From positions 1-34,250 of the forward strand of contig PGZW01000003.1 of the NCBI GenBank assembly GCA_002841515.1: 34,250 nt of DNA. The letters run 5' to 3'. The first letter of the stretch is position 1. Every line of letters starts with the position of its first letter. This document shows, piece by piece, positions 3,645-12,525 of the stretch. The stretch is from Firmicutes bacterium HGW-Firmicutes-19 (GTDB taxonomy: Bacteria > Bacillota_I > Bacilli_A > Erysipelotrichales > Erysipelotrichaceae). Made by a program: the position numbers and the translations under genes. The notes beneath the pieces are model-generated. The model was not told the DNA's origin. It saw nothing but the letters and a program-made list of their open reading frames with translations, and did not search any database.

Positions 3645-4827
3645 TCACCATCCTTAATAAGTTCATCTCAATCTGATTCAATATCTTACTTTTCTCGAAA
3701 TTATTTTTATAATACTTCTTCGAATTTCTGCCAAAATTTTCTACATCAGCATTACAGCAAAAAAAGCCAATATTTTTGGCAAGTTCTTCGTAATCCTCAG
3801 CCGGTCCACAATACCCACAATTAGATTGTCTAATGACGTAATCAGTTTCCCCATTAATCGCACCAATTATTGGTTTGCTAGCAGCCATATAAGTTTGAAT
3901 TTTGCCAGGAAGGGTTAAGGAAAGGAAATCATCACTTTTCAATGTAACAAGCATTGCATCAGCAATTCCATAAAAATATGTCATTTCATTTAAGGGTCTT
4001 CTACCGTAAAACGATACATTAGTTAAAGAATAATCTTCAGCCATTTTTCTTATGTCTCTTAGTTTAGATCCTTCTCCAACAATGTGAAAAAATATATCGG
4101 ACTTCTCTTTGAGTATGTTAGCTGCTTTAATGATCGTTTCAACACTTTGTGCCTCACCTATGTTACCAGCAAAAACAAAATTTCTGCCCTGTACACTAAC
4201 TTTATCTACTTGACTAGTAAACAAATCTTCAGCATATTGTGGAATGTAATCGATTTTTTCATTGTCAATAACGTGGTTTTTTGCTAAATAATCAATAAAA
4301 CTATGAGATGTTACAGAAATCAAATCGGAATTCGAGTAAATATATTTTGAAATCTTATTAAAAACTCTATATATAAGTGAACTCTCACTTAAACCGCCCA
4401 TTCGTAAACTATCTGGCCATAGATCTAAACAATACAAAAAAAGTCTCCTTTTCGTTCGCCTTTTCATGACAATTGCCGGAAACACCATTGTTATAGGTGA
4501 TAGTTGATTTGCGTAAATTACATCGAAGTCTTTGCTTATAAACAGAGACTTTATTGAACAGGATATCGCAAAACTCAAATAATTCAAGAAAAGCGATAAC
4601 TTGCTTTTCCCTCTTCCGATCAAGAAACACCTTTTTACTGTTACACCATTGATAATTTCATTGCGATTTTTAAATAATCTGTACCTGTTTTGAATTATAC
4701 CTTCAGGGTAGTTTGGAAGACCTGTTAGAACTGTAACCGAATGACCTTTTAGTACAAGACTCTCACAGATATCAGTAATTCTAAATGGTTCTGGGTAATA
4801 GTATTGGCAAACGACAAGAATTTTCAT
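3631..4827 (-). CDS. Glycosyltransferase family 4 (WbuB-like, candidate fucosaminyl transferase)
   Basis: MKILVVCQYYYPEPFRITDICESLVLKGHSVTVLTGLPNYPEG; GT-B architecture; adjacent to FucNAc genes. Confidence 0.82.
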   Translation of the reverse strand: MKILVVCQYYYPEPFRITDICESLVLKGHSVTVLTGLPNYPEGIIQNRYRLFKNRNEIINGVTVKRCFLIGRGKSKLSLFLNYLSFAISCSIKSLFISKDFDVIYANQLSPITMVFPAIVMKRRTKRRLFLYCLDLWPDSLRMGGLSESSLIYRVFNKISKYIYSNSDLISVTSHSFIDYLAKNHVIDNEKIDYIPQYAEDLFTSQVDKVSVQGRNFVFAGNIGEAQSVETIIKAANILKEKSDIFFHIVGEGSKLRDIRKMAEDYSLTNVSFYGRRPLNEMTYFYGIADAMLVTLKSDDFLSLTLPGKIQTYMAASKPIIGAINGETDYVIRQSNCGYCGPAEDYEELAKNIGFFCCNADVENFGRNSKKYYKNNFEKSKILNQIEMNLLRMVNGNV

Positions 4828-5444
4828 CGTTGAGCCTCCACATTTGAGGATTCTGATGAAACTAAAGTTCCTTCCTTGATTCCCTTACTGCTTAACACAC
4901 TTGTGATAGTTAAGATGAAACATTTAATATCGAAAAACAATGACATCTTCTCGATATATTCGCCATCCAGTTTTGCTTTAATGGGGATTGGTAGTTCATC
5001 CCTGCCATTAATTTGTGCCCAACCGGTAAGTCCCGGAAGAACACTGTTGGCATTGTATTTCTCCCTTTCATCAATGAGATCATATTGATTCCAAAGAGCT
5101 GGTCTAGGACCGATGAAACTCATCTCACCTTTTAAGATATTGATGATTTGAGGGAGTTCGTCAAAGGATGACTTTCTAAGAAACTTCCCTACTTTAGTGA
5201 TCCACTGTTGTGGGTTTTCTAGCAGATGCGTCGGAGTGTCTTTTGGAGTATCAATTCTCATCGTTCGAAACTTCAGGATATAGAAATGAGACTTGTTTAT
5301 TCCGACTCTTTTCTGCTTGAAAAGAATCGGACCTTTGGAGTCAAGTTTTATTGCGATGATCAATAGTGCGAATATGGGTGATAGAACAATCAGACCAATG
5401 GCTGATAATGTTATATCGATAATTCTTTTGATTTTAATATACAT
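4824..5444 (-). CDS. Small phosphoglycosyltransferase (polyprenyl-phosphate sugar-1-P transferase, catalytic domain only)
   Basis: KRIIDITLSAIGLIVLSPIFALLIIAIKLDSKGPILFKQKRVG...FRTMR...RPALWNQYDLI...PGLTGWAQINGR; AAAGGAG SD. Confidence 0.92.
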   Translation of the reverse strand: MYIKIKRIIDITLSAIGLIVLSPIFALLIIAIKLDSKGPILFKQKRVGINKSHFYILKFRTMRIDTPKDTPTHLLENPQQWITKVGKFLRKSSFDELPQIINILKGEMSFIGPRPALWNQYDLIDEREKYNANSVLPGLTGWAQINGRDELPIPIKAKLDGEYIEKMSLFFDIKCFILTITSVLSSKGIKEGTLVSSESSNVEAQR

Positions 5445-5518
5445 TTCCCCACACTCCTTTATAATACGGCTTCGCCCACAGACGAGCTCCGCAGTTAACT
5501 ACTTCTATAAAATCTAAA

Positions 5519-5560: not shown

Positions 5561-6073
5561 TTATTGCTTACTGATAATCTCTAATGCTACGGTGATCGTT
5601 CTTAGCTGGCCAAACATCTCGATATCCAGCTGTGCGATTCGTTTATGGCGGTCGATTTTCTTGATCATACTCTCATGTCCCATTAATGGACCTTCAGTTA
5701 TGATGATCTTATCGCCTTCGATAAGACCTATGGAATTCTCTATCACATGATCCTTATTCGCAAACTTCATCAAGAATTCCTTCTCATGTGGATATAAAGA
5801 TTCAGTTTCTTGATCATGTTTTAACAGTTTGATAAATCCTGTGAGCTGTTGAATCTCATTTTGAATGAACTTCTGAAATTCAGTGGTGTCATGTTTTGAT
5901 TTGACGAACACATAATTCTTGAAAAGAAGGACATCTTCTTTGCGCATTTCACTTTTGCTTTTAAATATCTTGGTAACCTTAGGAAGAAAAGCATCGTGGG
6001 CTGATTCGTTGATTTTTTCTTTTATTTTGAGCTCATGTCCGCCTCGGACAAACAGTACGTGCCAGTACATCAA
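5561..6073 (-). CDS. loaP: LoaP-type NusG paralogue (processive antiterminator)
   Basis: NGN-type start MMYWHVLFVRGGHELKIKEKIN...AFLPKVTKIFKSKSEMRKEDVLLFKNYVFVKS and KOW-like GDKIIITEGPLMGHESMIKKIDRHKRIAQLDIEMFGQ; embedded in a polysaccharide operon. Confidence 0.85.
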   Translation of the reverse strand: MMYWHVLFVRGGHELKIKEKINESAHDAFLPKVTKIFKSKSEMRKEDVLLFKNYVFVKSKHDTTEFQKFIQNEIQQLTGFIKLLKHDQETESLYPHEKEFLMKFANKDHVIENSIGLIEGDKIIITEGPLMGHESMIKKIDRHKRIAQLDIEMFGQLRTITVALEIISKQ

Positions 6074-7920
6074 CTCTGCCTGTAAGTCGGCACGGTTTCC
6101 ATCAGTGCCTTCACGATTTCTCCGCGCGACTGATCGACGGAAACGACTTTACGAAGATATTCCAACTCTCTGATGATCTGCTCTCTTTGAATGTTCATCG
6201 GCTTCGCCACTTTGATAAGCGGGTTGGGAGTTTCCTTTAACCCTTCCTCATCCATAAGTAGTTCTTCAAATAATTTCTCGCCTGGTCTTAAACCGGTGAA
6301 CGTAATATCGATATCCTGATACGGAACATATCCGGCAAGTGATATCATCTTCTCGGCTAAGTCGAGTATCTTAACGGGTTCACCCATATCGAGAACAAAT
6401 ATCTCTCCGCCTTCGCCATACGCCGCCGCCTGTAAGACCAGTGACACCGCTTCAGGAATGGTCATAAAGTAACGAATCATTTCCGGATCAGTGACCGTCA
6501 CCGGACCGCCACTGGCAATCTGCTTTTGAAAGAGTGGAATGACACTGCCATTGGAACCAAGTACATTACCGAATCTTACGGCCACAAACTTTGTCGGTCC
6601 TTCTTTACCGATGGTCTGAACCATCTTTTCCACAAAGCGCTTGGTCGCCCCCATGACATTGGTCGGATTGACAGCTTTGTCCGTCGATATCTGAACCATC
6701 TTCTTAACTTTGTGTTTCTTACATAGTTCGATGATATTGTGTGAGCCGAAGATATTGTTCTTCACGGCTTCACCCGGCATCGACTCCATCAGTGGCACAT
6801 GCTTGTGCGCAGCCGCATGAAACACGATATCAAACTCTCCTCTGGTAAAAATCATGTCCAGTGCTGAGAAGTCCCTTATAGAAGCTAGAATCGGAATAAA
6901 CTCCACATCTTCCTCAATTCTCTTATCCTTTTTCAAGATATTCAGTTCGGATTGTAATTCGTATATCGAATTTTCACTGATATCCAACATGATGACGCTT
7001 TTGGGCTGGTATTGTACGATCTGACGGACTAGCTCACTGCCAATCGAACCCCCAGCTCCGGTAACCAGAATGCTCTTCTTATATAACAATGTTCTTAAGT
7101 CATCCTGTTTGAGATGAATCTCTTTTCTGCCCAGCAAATCCTCAATCGAAATTTCACGGATGGAACGGTGGATACCGGCACTTTGAATCATGTCCTGCGA
7201 GCCGGTGATCATAAATACTTTGGCCTTACTGGCATAACACAACTGAGCAATCTGATTTTGCTTTTTAACCGAAATCGAAGGCATCGCGATGTAAATCACA
7301 TCGACCTTTTCCTTGATGGCCATCCACTCAACATCAACCGTTTTGCCTAGTACCGGCACACCCATGATCAGCTTACCGATTTTATAAATATCATCATCCA
7401 AGAAGCCGATGACTTTATTGTTATACTTACGGTTTTGTAAAATTTCTTTTAACAGCATCGTCCCTGCCTCACCGGCACCGACAATGATTGTCCGCTTGTC
7501 ATCACATGATTTGAAATTGTTTATTGAAACAAAGAGCCGAAAAATTCTATAAGAAAACCTAACCAGCACCAACATCAACACCACCAGCATCAATGCAATG
7601 AAATGCACACTAATTGGCAAATGGATGAGCGTAATATACTCACAAATGATATACACGATCAAGAAAGCAAACAACGAAGCCAACGAAACTCGTAAGGCCT
7701 CATCAACACTTGGTGATGACCAAAGTGTTTTATCAACTTGAGCTATCTTAAAAGCAATAAAATAAGAAATTGCGATGGCCGGAACAAGTTCCGTCAAATG
7801 ATGAAAATACGTCATATCGCGCAATGAAAAATCGAGACGGATCCACAGCGCTATATAATACGCCAGTAATACCATCACGATGTCGAATAAAGATAAAAGA
7901 ATATTGCGATATTTTTTCAA
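6070..7920 (-). CDS. Membrane-bound nucleoside-diphosphate-sugar 4,6-dehydratase (CapD/PglF-like)
   Basis: N-terminal TM helices, then KSILVTGAGGSIGSELVRQIV, HAAAHKHVPLMESMPGEAVKNN, STDKAVNPTNVMGATKR; TTG at 7920 proposed (KKYRNILLSLFD...), ORF-track start 7971 lies upstream of the predicted promoter. Confidence 0.88.
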   Translation of the reverse strand: MKKYRNILLSLFDIVMVLLAYYIALWIRLDFSLRDMTYFHHLTELVPAIAISYFIAFKIAQVDKTLWSSPSVDEALRVSLASLFAFLIVYIICEYITLIHLPISVHFIALMLVVLMLVLVRFSYRIFRLFVSINNFKSCDDKRTIIVGAGEAGTMLLKEILQNRKYNNKVIGFLDDDIYKIGKLIMGVPVLGKTVDVEWMAIKEKVDVIYIAMPSISVKKQNQIAQLCYASKAKVFMITGSQDMIQSAGIHRSIREISIEDLLGRKEIHLKQDDLRTLLYKKSILVTGAGGSIGSELVRQIVQYQPKSVIMLDISENSIYELQSELNILKKDKRIEEDVEFIPILASIRDFSALDMIFTRGEFDIVFHAAAHKHVPLMESMPGEAVKNNIFGSHNIIELCKKHKVKKMVQISTDKAVNPTNVMGATKRFVEKMVQTIGKEGPTKFVAVRFGNVLGSNGSVIPLFQKQIASGGPVTVTDPEMIRYFMTIPEAVSLVLQAAAYGEGGEIFVLDMGEPVKILDLAEKMISLAGYVPYQDIDITFTGLRPGEKLFEELLMDEEGLKETPNPLIKVAKPMNIQREQIIRELEYLRKVVSVDQSRGEIVKALMETVPTYRQS

Positions 7921-7944
7921 GAGCCCCACACCCCTAACGAGAAG

Positions 7945-7973
7945 AATATAACACAAGTGACTAAAATTCACAA
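7945..7973 (-). promoter_or_regulatory. Sigma-A-like promoter for capD-like/loaP operon
   Basis: Minus strand TTGTGA-N17-TATATT. Confidence 0.55.
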
Positions 7974-8070
7974 CTTTATCTTAGATGATTTCATTAATAT
8001 TGATAAAAATTCTCATGATATTTGATGAAAGACTTTTCAAAGACCGATTTTTTATACACTTTTGGTAGGC

Positions 8071-8108
8071 AAATGAAATTTCGTGAAATATCTTTCATTT
8101 GATATAAT
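8071..8108 (+). promoter_or_regulatory. Promoter region with operator-like inverted repeat upstream of candidate sRNA
   Basis: TATAAT at 8103-8108; AAATGAAA (8071-8078) / TTTCATTT (8093-8100) perfect inverted repeat with an inner TTTCGTGAAA overlapping the -35 region. Confidence 0.45.
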
Positions 8109-8114
8109 ATCTGA

Positions 8115-8293
8115 TGACAACACCTAAAATATGTGATAATATTTCAAATGTCGGAAATGCAATCCCCCCCACACACATTTCCGACAAGGATTACGGAACC
8201 CGTGGCGGCTTCCCCCAAGACGTCACATCTATCATGAGGGAACTCACGAATCCTGCAAAGCCAGCACCGCCCCCCGGTGCTGGTTTTATTATT
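8115..8293 (+). ncRNA. Candidate C-rich structured small RNA, class unknown
   Basis: Own -10; TGTCGGAAATG (8149-8159) / CATTTCCGACA (8176-8186) 11-bp stem with 16-nt loop containing C7; AGGATT...AATCCT long-range pairing; ends in strong terminator; no SD or convincing ORF; convergent with cpsB. Confidence 0.6.
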
Positions 8294-8333: not shown

Positions 8334-9110
8334 TTATCTGCGCCACCAAGCTTTCTTTATTTCAATATTTGAAAGAGACTGATTGTTCTTTAATTTGTTT
8401 GGATTAATGATGCACAGTTGATCCGCAGTCTTTTGTTCAAATCGACGGGCAATCATCCCATAAACGTCATCCAACCGGCATTCCCGACTTCCCTCACCTT
8501 GATGAGCATCGGATGCCACGATATGAGCCAAGCCTTCACTGACCAACCGCCATGAAATCCTGTCTGCCCGCTCTCCATGGATGCCAAGTAGGCTGGTGCG
8601 GTTGATCTGAAAATGACAACCCCACGACTGCCACTTCCGACACGTATCGACCGCTTGTTTTTCATTGTCAAAATAGCGCTCTGGATGCGCGATTAACAGT
8701 TTGATGCCCATCCGATCGAGTTCGTAAATCGCATCTTGTACGATTCGAGATTCGATGGTTCTGCGCGTAAACTCAATTAACAGCCAATCCGTATCTTGAT
8801 AACACACAAATCTTCGTTCTACGATGGCTTTGATTGCTTCCTCATTGATCCGAAACTCACAGGCAGACTTCAATTCTAAGGGAAGCTCGTGTTCTTCACT
8901 AAGTTTCTTTAAGTCTGATAGCTTTTCTTCAATCTCTTGTTTTGTCGGATCATACATGCCCTCAATGATCTTATGCGGAGTGACAAAAAGCGTCGCAATC
9001 CCTGTGCTATGTGCACAGCGAAGCAACGCCAACGCCTCATCTTTACTTTTGACCCCATCATCAAAATCCCACAAGGCATGACAATGGGTATCGATAAACT
9101 TATTCTTCAT
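8334..9110 (-). CDS. cpsB: PHP-family tyrosine-protein phosphatase (CpsB/YwqE-like)
   Basis: FIDTHCHALWDFDDGVKSKDEALALLRCAHSTGIATLFVTPHKIIEGMY; HPERYF; ASDAHQ; start at M6 (9110) or 9125. Confidence 0.9.
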   Translation of the reverse strand: MKNKFIDTHCHALWDFDDGVKSKDEALALLRCAHSTGIATLFVTPHKIIEGMYDPTKQEIEEKLSDLKKLSEEHELPLELKSACEFRINEEAIKAIVERRFVCYQDTDWLLIEFTRRTIESRIVQDAIYELDRMGIKLLIAHPERYFDNEKQAVDTCRKWQSWGCHFQINRTSLLGIHGERADRISWRLVSEGLAHIVASDAHQGEGSRECRLDDVYGMIARRFEQKTADQLCIINPNKLKNNQSLSNIEIKKAWWRR

Positions 9111-9801
9111 AAAAATTGATTTCACCCAAGACCGGTAAATTCAATACTTTCTCTGCGTCATGACGATTATGGATGGTACGATCCAACATCAACTTCAAAA
9201 AGACGAAACCGACCGACAACATCAAGCCTAGCAAACCGCCAATCGCCGTATTCAACGTCGTATTAGGACCCACCTTCTTGGTATTGACCGTCGCCGCATC
9301 GATGACCCGCAAGTTATCGATGGTCATTGTTTCCACGACTTCCTCAATAAACACACTCACCACCCGGTTGGTCAATCGCGCGGAAAGTTCCGGATCGGTT
9401 GTTACTGCCGACACCCTGATGATCTGTGTATCACCGATCGCCGAAACCGACACGGCCGAGCGGATACTGTCCACATCCAGATTATCCCTGGTAAAATACG
9501 GGACGACCTGATTTAACACCGCATTGCTCTTCGCTAATTGAGTATACGTACCGACCAACCGCTGATTCACATTCAAATCGTTTAAATTCAAATTGCCTTC
9601 TTTAACTTCCGGTTGGATATACACGGTCGACTCACTGCGATATGTGGGCTGAATAAAAAAGCGCGTATACGCAAATGCTACTGTCAGGCCTAATGCCGTC
9701 ATCAAAATAATCAAAAGCGCATGCTTATACAATATGGCCAAAAGCTCGACCAAATCAATCTCAAACTCACGCTCATTTTCCTCAAAATACTTTTCTTCCA
9801 T
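9100..9801 (-). CDS. cpsC: Polysaccharide chain-length determinant/kinase modulator (Wzz; CpsC/YveK-like)
   Basis: MEEKYFEENEREFEIDLVELLAILYKHALLIILMTALGLTVAFAYTRF, C-terminal TM; start revised to 9801 with AGGGGG SD. Confidence 0.88.
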   Translation of the reverse strand: MEEKYFEENEREFEIDLVELLAILYKHALLIILMTALGLTVAFAYTRFFIQPTYRSESTVYIQPEVKEGNLNLNDLNVNQRLVGTYTQLAKSNAVLNQVVPYFTRDNLDVDSIRSAVSVSAIGDTQIIRVSAVTTDPELSARLTNRVVSVFIEEVVETMTIDNLRVIDAATVNTKKVGPNTTLNTAIGGLLGLMLSVGFVFLKLMLDRTIHNRHDAEKVLNLPVLGEINFYEE

Positions 9802-9965: not shown

Positions 9966-10766
9966 ATGGAAAAAATCAACTTAGTCACCTTACGCGAAAA
10001 ACCTAAGAACTCAAATGGCGGATACGTATTCGATCACAGTGAAGCCTACCGTCATTTACGCACCAATATCGAATTTTCCGCATTTAACAGCGACATCAAT
10101 GTGTTGGTGGTCACCTCCGCCAACGCTGCGGAAGGCAAAAGTACTACTTCTGCCAATCTGGCCGTCGTCATGGCTTCTCATCGTCAACGCGTCCTTTTGA
10201 TTGACTGCGATTTACGTATTCCGGATATTCACCGTCTGTTTCACTTATCCAATGTTCACGGACTATCCGATGCTTTGCTTAACTTTAAAACTGAAGGGTT
10301 CAATGTACTGAAATATGTCCAGCAAATCAAGCATCCCAACATTGCTAATGATTTGTACGTCATGCCTTCAGGACCCAATGTCCCCAACCCTGCCGAAATG
10401 TTATCGTCCAAACGCTTTCGAGAGTTCATTGACTTTCTTAAGTTGCGCTTCGATATGATCATCATGGATGGTCCTCCGGTTTTGCCGGTACCCGATGCCA
10501 TTCCGGTCGGATTGGCCGCCGATGGCATGCTTTTCTGTGTGGCGAGTGAGCAAACCAAAAAGGAACATGCCAAAGTCGCCTTGACCCAATGTAAACGGGC
10601 TGGGATCAATGTGATTGGAACCTGCGTTACAATGATCAAAGAAGAACGTAATTCTTACTACAGTTACTATTACAATACCGTACAAAACAAGACACTGGGA
10701 CAACAGTTGAAACAGCGTAAGAAAAAAGTCCGAAAAGAAGATAAAAAGATTAAGCCCAATGTCTGA
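9966..10766 (+). CDS. cpsD: BY-type tyrosine kinase (CpsD/YwqD-like)
   Basis: Walker A SANAAEGKSTTSANLAV, Walker A' VLLIDCDLRIPDIH, MIIMDGPPV; C-terminal tyrosine cluster SYYSYYYN; start 9966 with AGGGGG SD. Confidence 0.92.
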   Translation: MEKINLVTLREKPKNSNGGYVFDHSEAYRHLRTNIEFSAFNSDINVLVVTSANAAEGKSTTSANLAVVMASHRQRVLLIDCDLRIPDIHRLFHLSNVHGLSDALLNFKTEGFNVLKYVQQIKHPNIANDLYVMPSGPNVPNPAEMLSSKRFREFIDFLKLRFDMIIMDGPPVLPVPDAIPVGLAADGMLFCVASEQTKKEHAKVALTQCKRAGINVIGTCVTMIKEERNSYYSYYYNTVQNKTLGQQLKQRKKKVRKEDKKIKPNV

Positions 10767-10987: not shown

Positions 10988-11002
10988 CAACCTCCGTTTT
11001 TT
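10970..11002. terminator. Bidirectional intrinsic terminator between convergent genes
   Basis: AAAACGGAAGTTGC-TTA-GCAACCTCCGTTTTTTT. Confidence 0.75.
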
Positions 11003-12525
11003 TAGTATCCAAGGGAACTTAACAGATCCACTAAAAACTCCACGACCCACTCCGGCGCAAAATAGTACTGAGCCGGTGAATTTCCGTCTTCATTGGTTAC
11101 CCCAAAGAGCGACTTGCCGTCAAAAATCGTTCCGAAGATCCGGATGCCATCCATACTTCTCAACAATATCTGCGGCGTCAAACCGACCGGCGGCAAATTC
11201 TCCGCCACGATCCACGAATCAAATGATAGCGAAGCTCTCAGTGCCTCCGCATTTTCTGCACTTATAGCACTCCACTCCTCAACAAACTCATCGGGATCAT
11301 TGGACCAAACACCGGTAAACACCTCATTGAGCGTCACATTCAACAATGCTTCACTCAGTTGAGGATATTTCGATATCGGACGAATCTGCGACAACATATT
11401 CTGCCCGTCCAATATTATGGTCACCGGAGCATAGTAGAACTCTTTGCGAACGACATCATTTTTAACCACAGACACACCGACCAACGAACGACTCTCATCC
11501 CACAGACAAATTGATAATGAGATGCCATCATCCGAAGAGACGATGTAAACCACATCCAACCCTCTTGCCGGCAAATCATGTGCCACGATCCAGTCTTGAA
11601 TGCGCAACAAATTACGCAATTCACTTCCCTGTGACTCACTTAAATCAAACCACTTTCCTTCCCACTCCATCCAGGAATCCCCGATGTAAGCACGGGATAG
11701 ATTGGCATTGATAAACTCAGCCACTTCCACTTCCACCACCGGACTCAACCGGCGCAACACTTCCTCAACTTCACCCAATACACTTATAGGCGCATAAAAC
11801 ACTTTGCGTGCATAGCCGACTTGTGCATTGATTACAGACACCAATGCCTGCTCCCCAAGCACTCCGACACTTAACGACCAGCCCCCGTCACCCCTCAACA
11901 TATAGTAAGACTCAAAGGCATACCCTTCCAAATCCTTCGCTTCACTCCAACGACTCATATCCAACATCGCCCGGATATACAGACTGTCCTCTTGTTTTAA
12001 CTCAAACCACTTATCCTCCATAGCCTCCTGTGAAGGCCCTACATAAGCGCTTGTAAACCACACACTCAATAACTCCTCCGGCAGATCTTTGTTGTCTCCA
12101 ATGACCAAATCCGGCTCAATGCGCGCATTGAATGCTTTTATTAAAGGTATAATATCTGCCGGTGCAAAATAAAACTCCCGGTTACGTGCCGAAGCATCCA
12201 CATAATATACTAAAGCATTCCCCTGATACTCACTGATTGACACCTTAGCACCACTATCGTCATACAAAACGATGATCGACTTTTGCGTTGTCACGGACAA
12301 GTCCTTTTGATAGGACCACTTCGTCATTTGAATGATATTAGTGATTTCGACTCGATCTGACTCAGCTAGCGGTTTCTGACGATCCACGGTCTCCATCATC
12401 CAGCCGCCCACATACACCTTGGTAAATTTCATATTCAAAAGGTCGTTGTCCGGCTTTTTGGCACAACCCGCCAACGACAATGAAACAACAAACAAAACCA
12501 ACAATATCGACAGATATCTTTTCAT
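11002..12525 (-). CDS. Lipoprotein composed of four tandem ~120-aa repeats, unknown function
   Basis: Signal peptide with lipobox LAGC; four aligned units each with (V/A)(Y/F)xG...W..A..L...(F)Y(Y/F)AP (see findings); AAAGGGGG SD. Confidence 0.85.
   Translation of the reverse strand: MKRYLSILLVLFVVSLSLAGCAKKPDNDLLNMKFTKVYVGGWMMETVDRQKPLAESDRVEITNIIQMTKWSYQKDLSVTTQKSIIVLYDDSGAKVSISEYQGNALVYYVDASARNREFYFAPADIIPLIKAFNARIEPDLVIGDNKDLPEELLSVWFTSAYVGPSQEAMEDKWFELKQEDSLYIRAMLDMSRWSEAKDLEGYAFESYYMLRGDGGWSLSVGVLGEQALVSVINAQVGYARKVFYAPISVLGEVEEVLRRLSPVVEVEVAEFINANLSRAYIGDSWMEWEGKWFDLSESQGSELRNLLRIQDWIVAHDLPARGLDVVYIVSSDDGISLSICLWDESRSLVGVSVVKNDVVRKEFYYAPVTIILDGQNMLSQIRPISKYPQLSEALLNVTLNEVFTGVWSNDPDEFVEEWSAISAENAEALRASLSFDSWIVAENLPPVGLTPQILLRSMDGIRIFGTIFDGKSLFGVTNEDGNSPAQYYFAPEWVVEFLVDLLSSLGY

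Follow-up and report, generated by a model that had tools for sequence, protein, structure and literature searches.

The C-rich element at positions 8148-8290 of the window (the whole 34,250-nt stretch of Firmicutes bacterium HGW-Firmicutes-19 analyzed here) is a real sequence feature, and we are highly confident that it exists as an RNA gene, encoding a small RNA (sRNA) that lies between the minus-strand genes cpsB and capD (Table 1). We favor a scenario, in our judgment a probable one, in which the C-rich loops of this sRNA repress translation by pairing with G-rich ribosome-binding sites and do so independently of Hfq. Judging from sequence, G-rich start sites in the sRNA's own polysaccharide locus are the likely objects of this repression, and the capD-loaP mRNA may well be the main target, a proposal we make tentatively, as a close call. 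A first-pass annotation of this DNA had described a structured orphan C-rich sRNA; to that description we add a stable linkage between the RNA and the capD-loaP operon, the leader of which is complementary to the RNA.

Table 1. The sRNA gene, its structural elements and the neighboring genes and signals, by position in the window.
Feature	Position	Strand	Details
sRNA, ~143 nt, C-rich loops	8148..8290	+	Fold; homologs in G001, G005 and G006; frame-breaking indels
Conserved sRNA promoter, predicted	8114..8142	+	ATGACA 8114-8119; 17-nt spacer with TG 8134-8135; TAATAT 8137-8142
Hairpin 1	8149..8186	+	11-bp stem TGTCGGAAATG 8149-8159 / CATTTCCGACA 8176-8186; 16-nt loop CAATCCCCCCCACACA 8160-8175 (7 C, then ACACA)
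Domain 2	8187..8254	+	Closing helix AGGATT 8187-8192 / AATCCT 8249-8254; inner hairpin CTT-CCCCC-AAG (8209-8219); TTCCCCCAAG at 8210-8219 exposed
Hairpin 3, intrinsic terminator	8257..8290	+	Stem CCAGCACCG 8261-8269 / CGGTGCTGG 8275-8283; CCCCC loop, then T-tract (U-tract in the RNA); 96% identity over 8255-8290
capD-loaP operon promoter, predicted, divergent from the sRNA	7945..7973	-	TTGTGA-N17-TATATT with TG; conserved in four species
capD mRNA leader and start	7918..7938	-	GTTAGGGGTGTGGGGCTCTTG; identical in four species
capD/pglF-like polysaccharide dehydratase, candidate primary target	6070..7920	-	Probable TTG start; Pfam Polysacc_synt_2, E 4.6e-120
loaP, specialized NusG antiterminator, second gene of the capD operon	5561..6073	-	NF033641, 147 bits (cut-off 125)
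Sugar transferase, candidate target	4824..5444	-	Start region GGAGTGTGGGGAAATG; Pfam Bac_transf, E 2.1e-61
cpsB, CpsB/CapC phosphatase family	8334-9110	-	
wzz-like gene, candidate target	9100..9801	-	Start region GGTAGGGGGTAGTGCAATG, kept in G001 and G005; Pfam Wzz
wze-like tyrosine kinase, candidate target	9966..10766	+	Start region AGGGGGAACTCATG; TIGR01007

The predicted RNA would form three hairpins, each with a C-rich loop and the last being its own terminator, an anatomy that suggests a stand-alone regulatory sRNA. Positions 8148-8291 (144 nt) fold at -55.5 kcal/mol, with a z score of -6.7 relative to dinucleotide shuffles, none of which folded as well, whereas the complementary strand reached a z score of only -3.5; the wider segment 8110-8300 gave -57.6 kcal/mol (z -4.5). 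The stems, loops, terminator and TATAAT hexamer (8103-8108) named in the first-pass annotation were all found in place. In the ensemble prediction loops 1 and 2 are open, with an opening cost of about 0 kcal/mol, and the predicted fold exposes the C runs of all three loops, CCCCCCCACACACA (loop 1), UUCCCCC (loop 2) and CCCCC (terminator loop), which are kept in four species. Their lengths differ among relatives (loop 1 has 9 C in G005 and G006 compared to 7 in the window; loop 2 has 4 C in G005 compared to 5), yet they are always C runs.

Both a predicted promoter and a predicted intrinsic terminator are present for the sRNA and conserved in sequence, the promoter scoring 9 of 12, with TG, in a pattern scan. 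Given the conserved promoter block at 8112-8142, we infer that transcription would begin near position 8148, where the first stem has its base. Compared to the ~180-nt unit (8115-8293) that had been proposed earlier, the promoter and 5' end probably lie about 33 nt downstream of where they had been drawn; a 5' end nearer 8148 than 8115 is more likely on the basis of the sequence. The TATAAT at 8103, previously put forward as the promoter, sits in non-conserved sequence and reads CATAAT or CATAAA in relatives, although it may provide a second, strain-specific start. An inverted repeat (TGAAA-N4-TTTCA, 8084-8097) precedes the predicted sRNA start by approximately 57 bp; it is kept in three of the four species and is a possible operator. 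With its own promoter and terminator, an intrinsic-terminator-like hairpin that belongs to cpsB and precedes the sRNA in all four species, and a separate promoter for capD, the anatomy indicates that the sRNA is a separate transcription unit.

The window's genome has one copy of the sRNA, which occurs in four of the seven genomes of its genus (an Erysipelotrichaceae-related lineage), with homologs in G001 (MAG HGW-Firmicutes-10), G005 (Erysipelotrichaceae MAG C8_maxbin.054) and G006. Beyond the genus, a covariance model was run against 276 genomes of the family and 320 of the order (overlapping sets) under stricter filters, such that weak relatives may be missed, and only the four genus members matched. 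Pairwise identity among the four orthologs was 85-97% within the RNA (hairpin 1, 97%; domain 2, 85%; terminator, 96%) versus 43-61% in the flanks, with 60% upstream of the promoter (8061-8111), 94% in the promoter (8112-8142), 64% from the -10 element to the first stem (8143-8149) and 43% beyond the terminator. Conservation in four species of the genus, with sharp edges at promoter and terminator, supports the reading of a structured orphan C-rich sRNA. As for the genus members that do not have the sRNA, G002 and G004 have no close capD, and G003, which is only 69% complete, has a capD that is 53% identical and no detected loaP.

Covariation, which the first-pass annotation had suggested as a check, gave no significant support: two pairs change on both sides among the four sequences, a level reached by 71 of 500 shuffles. 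Because covariation was not significant with four sequences, we relied instead on wobble pairs to assign the strand. The variable pairs include U-A to U-G, U-A to G-U and G-U to A-U changes, and 181 of 183 cells are still paired when read on the plus strand versus 172 of 183 on the minus; the wobble pairs are compatible with the plus strand only, and the original plus-strand assignment is thereby upheld. That the minus strand is instead the functional one, as a leader or processive antitermination element with cpsB or capD, strikes us as very improbable. The element does lie between two minus-strand genes of a LoaP-encoding polysaccharide locus, and in this it recalls the EAR element of Bacillales polysaccharide operons (Bacillus eps), which is also a structured RNA within a polysaccharide locus. 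However, EAR acts in cis as part of the operon mRNA, whereas the sRNA, by its anatomy, forms a divergent transcription unit of its own that ends in its own terminator, and it has no Rfam match to EAR. Furthermore, a U-tract follows the hairpin on the plus strand only, and on the minus strand the element is preceded by the cpsB terminator and followed by the conserved capD promoter. We give almost no credence to a small protein-coding gene (ATG 8114, 97 codons) in place of an RNA gene. Such an open frame exists in the window, but 1- and 2-base indels break it in relatives, from which it follows that there is no conserved small protein gene; moreover, the translations diverge after about 20 residues and ATG 8114 coincides with the conserved -35 element.

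Precedent for C-rich regulatory RNAs is found in Gram-positive bacteria, where RsaE/RoxS, RNAIII, the csRNAs and IsrR pair with Shine-Dalgarno (SD) sequences through unpaired C-rich motifs and Hfq is dispensable. The sRNA resembles these in its C-rich unpaired motifs but differs in architecture and neighborhood, and the RsaE, RNAIII and csRNA families gave no Rfam match even at E values up to 10. In the whole window there were no Rfam matches at gathering score (RsaE/RoxS, RNAIII, 6S, SRP, tmRNA and others), as expected from the earlier impression that this was no known riboswitch, 6S, SRP RNA or tmRNA, and at E values up to 10 no family emerged, ar14 and Hrs10 appearing below threshold only. 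The best sub-threshold match on the plus strand was to ar14 (RF02344), full-length at 26.4 bits (E 0.005). Membership of the alpha-r14 family was rejected on two counts: (i) this score is below the gathering score of 58.8 bits and (ii) the CCUCCUCCC motif that defines the family, which should be unpaired in all three hairpins (PMC10746234), is absent from the sRNA, whose loops are CCCCCCCACAC, UUCCCCC and CCCCC.

There are nevertheless clear parallels in organization. NfeR1 has three redundant anti-SD loops (PMC10746234), and NfeR1/alpha-r14 and the sRNA alike have three hairpins, each with an unpaired anti-SD motif, although the former is from Alphaproteobacteria and the latter from a Firmicutes genus. 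In the portions of the sX13 report that we draw on (PMC3771888), this Xanthomonas sRNA has three stable stems with apical C-rich loops and acts at G-rich motifs near start codons independently of Hfq; the three stems, the C-rich loops, the proposed G-rich start-codon targets and the Hfq-independence thus recur in our proposal. The two differ in phylum, we found no sequence relation between them, and in those same portions no location beside a polysaccharide operon is described for sX13 (PMC3771888). By analogy, then, the sRNA appears to work like sX13 and NfeR1/alpha-r14 but belongs to neither.

In all four species capD adjoins the sRNA divergently and is followed by loaP where the contig permits checking. 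The capD-loaP leader GUUAGGGGUGUGGGGCUCUUG is identical across the four, compared to only about 60% identity in the sequence from capD to the sRNA. Loop 1 and the leader are both invariant and hence show no compensatory changes. The longest capD frame begins at GTG 7971, which lies upstream of the conserved promoter, and translation probably starts at TTG 7920 instead. The leader would then be shorter than 20 nt; it folds back weakly onto the start codon, and opening it is predicted to cost about 4 kcal/mol. Two further observations concern capD in the relatives. In the draft assembly of G001, the capD copy (C141:19617-21509) contains two TGA codons in frame and is either a pseudogene or affected by an assembly error. 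G005 has a second, diverged capD-loaP pair (contig C27, loci L162/L163; capD 56% identical), located about 23 kb from the first, for which no sRNA copy was detected.

The capD leader has two GGGG runs, a property of none of 197 background start regions (taken from sampled genome stretches). Its GTGTGGGG (7924-7931) is the complement of CCCCACAC in loop 1 and occurs elsewhere in the window only at 5447, besides the sRNA's own complement. Pairing of loop 1 with the leader was predicted at -16.5 kcal/mol, and 3 of the 197 background genes did as well (top 2%); the best loop pairing among the window's genes was that of the sugar transferase, at -18.3 and -19.9 kcal/mol. The wze start region is complementary to loop 2 UUCCCCC, with its GGGGG kept in G001 and G005, and the G-run start regions of capD, wzz and wze are conserved in G000, G001 and G005. 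A predicted lipoprotein gene (11002-12525) also has GGGGG in its start region; its product apparently consists of about four repeats that resemble one another, each roughly 110-120 residues long.

More generally, GGGG-containing start regions were found for 9 of 29 genes in the window compared to 17 of the 197 background genes (p=0.002), and against the same background for 10 of 46 in the G005 locus (p 0.015) and 7 of 34 in the G001 locus (p 0.043), p values that are not independent because the three genomes are related. The overall G content of start regions was similar (0.28 in the polysaccharide locus and 0.27 in the background). There was no enrichment in the G006 stretch (1 of 18), where gene content differs and capD is cut by the contig end; in G003, without the sRNA, the count was 1 of 16. 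Start codons in these counts come from a simple custom caller, and the G005 background stretches were picked where GTGTGGGG occurs, which if anything raises the background of G runs. The G-rich motifs expected near the start codons of the proposed targets are thus present, both as locus enrichment and in the invariant capD leader, and they lend substance to the earlier notion that the C-rich patches are aimed at SD sequences.

We do not claim exact seed matching, as shuffled versions of loop 1 paired with the capD leader equally well (mean -17.5 versus -16.5 kcal/mol for the real loop; 62% were as good); target choice would accordingly be by G-richness. The 8-mer GTGTGGGG was rejected as a specific seed, since across genomes it was not enriched ahead of start-like codons relative to a reversed control and most inspected matches fell within coding sequence. 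Together the shuffle and 8-mer results support recognition of G runs by C runs at ribosome-binding sites but not a unique seed. This bears on a different reading, in which the sRNA is a general anti-SD RNA with its main targets elsewhere in the genome and its place beside capD-loaP is mere inheritance. We regard it as unlikely, though deserving of serious consideration, as pairing that depends on G-richness only, together with the 17 background genes with GGGG start regions, would be enough for a wider regulon. Arguing for local targets instead are start-codon G runs that are two to four times commoner in the polysaccharide locus at a like overall G content, and a linkage to capD that is kept in four species even though the genes on the sRNA's other side differ in G006.

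In the mechanism we propose, the exposed C runs would pair with G runs at ribosome-binding sites and repress translation without any need for Hfq, which was not detected in any of the seven genomes of the genus by a search that found its positive controls. The main target would be the divergent capD-loaP mRNA, with its very short leader and G runs beside the start codon; its repression would lower LoaP levels, and the long polysaccharide operon would be transcribed less as a result. Possible co-targets are further polysaccharide genes whose start regions contain GGGG or GGGGG, namely wzz, wze and the lipoprotein gene, along with the sugar transferase in some species. It is also conceivable, albeit improbable, that the sRNA acts not by base pairing but by binding a protein, such as LoaP or a different RNA-binding regulator. 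Two facts speak for this: the adjoining operon has loaP as its second gene, and the RNA bound by LoaP proteins is a small hairpin (PMC12691694), as in the dfn/mln leader, which likewise lies near a loaP gene. However, the known LoaP ligand is a hairpin with a UNCG tetraloop (PMC12691694), and no UNCG hairpin (at least 6 pairs, at least 3 of them G-C) was found when the window was scanned, in the sRNA or elsewhere; the conserved loops of the sRNA are C runs. Returning to base pairing, we can envision, more speculatively and with some doubt, that the sRNA and LoaP constitute one divergent regulatory module in which silencing of capD-loaP switches the whole exopolysaccharide operon, while contacts with wzz and wze coordinate the assembly machinery.

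The RNA family is new, whereas its functional kind is already known from sX13, NfeR1/alpha-r14, RsaE and RNAIII. What we describe is an unlisted sRNA family, which our searches recovered only from a single, little-studied genus with no detectable Hfq, and a further, apparently independent case of three-hairpin C-rich sRNAs aimed at G-rich ribosome-binding sites. If the link to capD-loaP is true, small-RNA control would sit atop processive antitermination in polysaccharide synthesis, joining two regulatory layers that tend to be studied separately, and if the sRNA and LoaP do form one module, this would be the first known sRNA to control a LoaP-type processive antiterminator.
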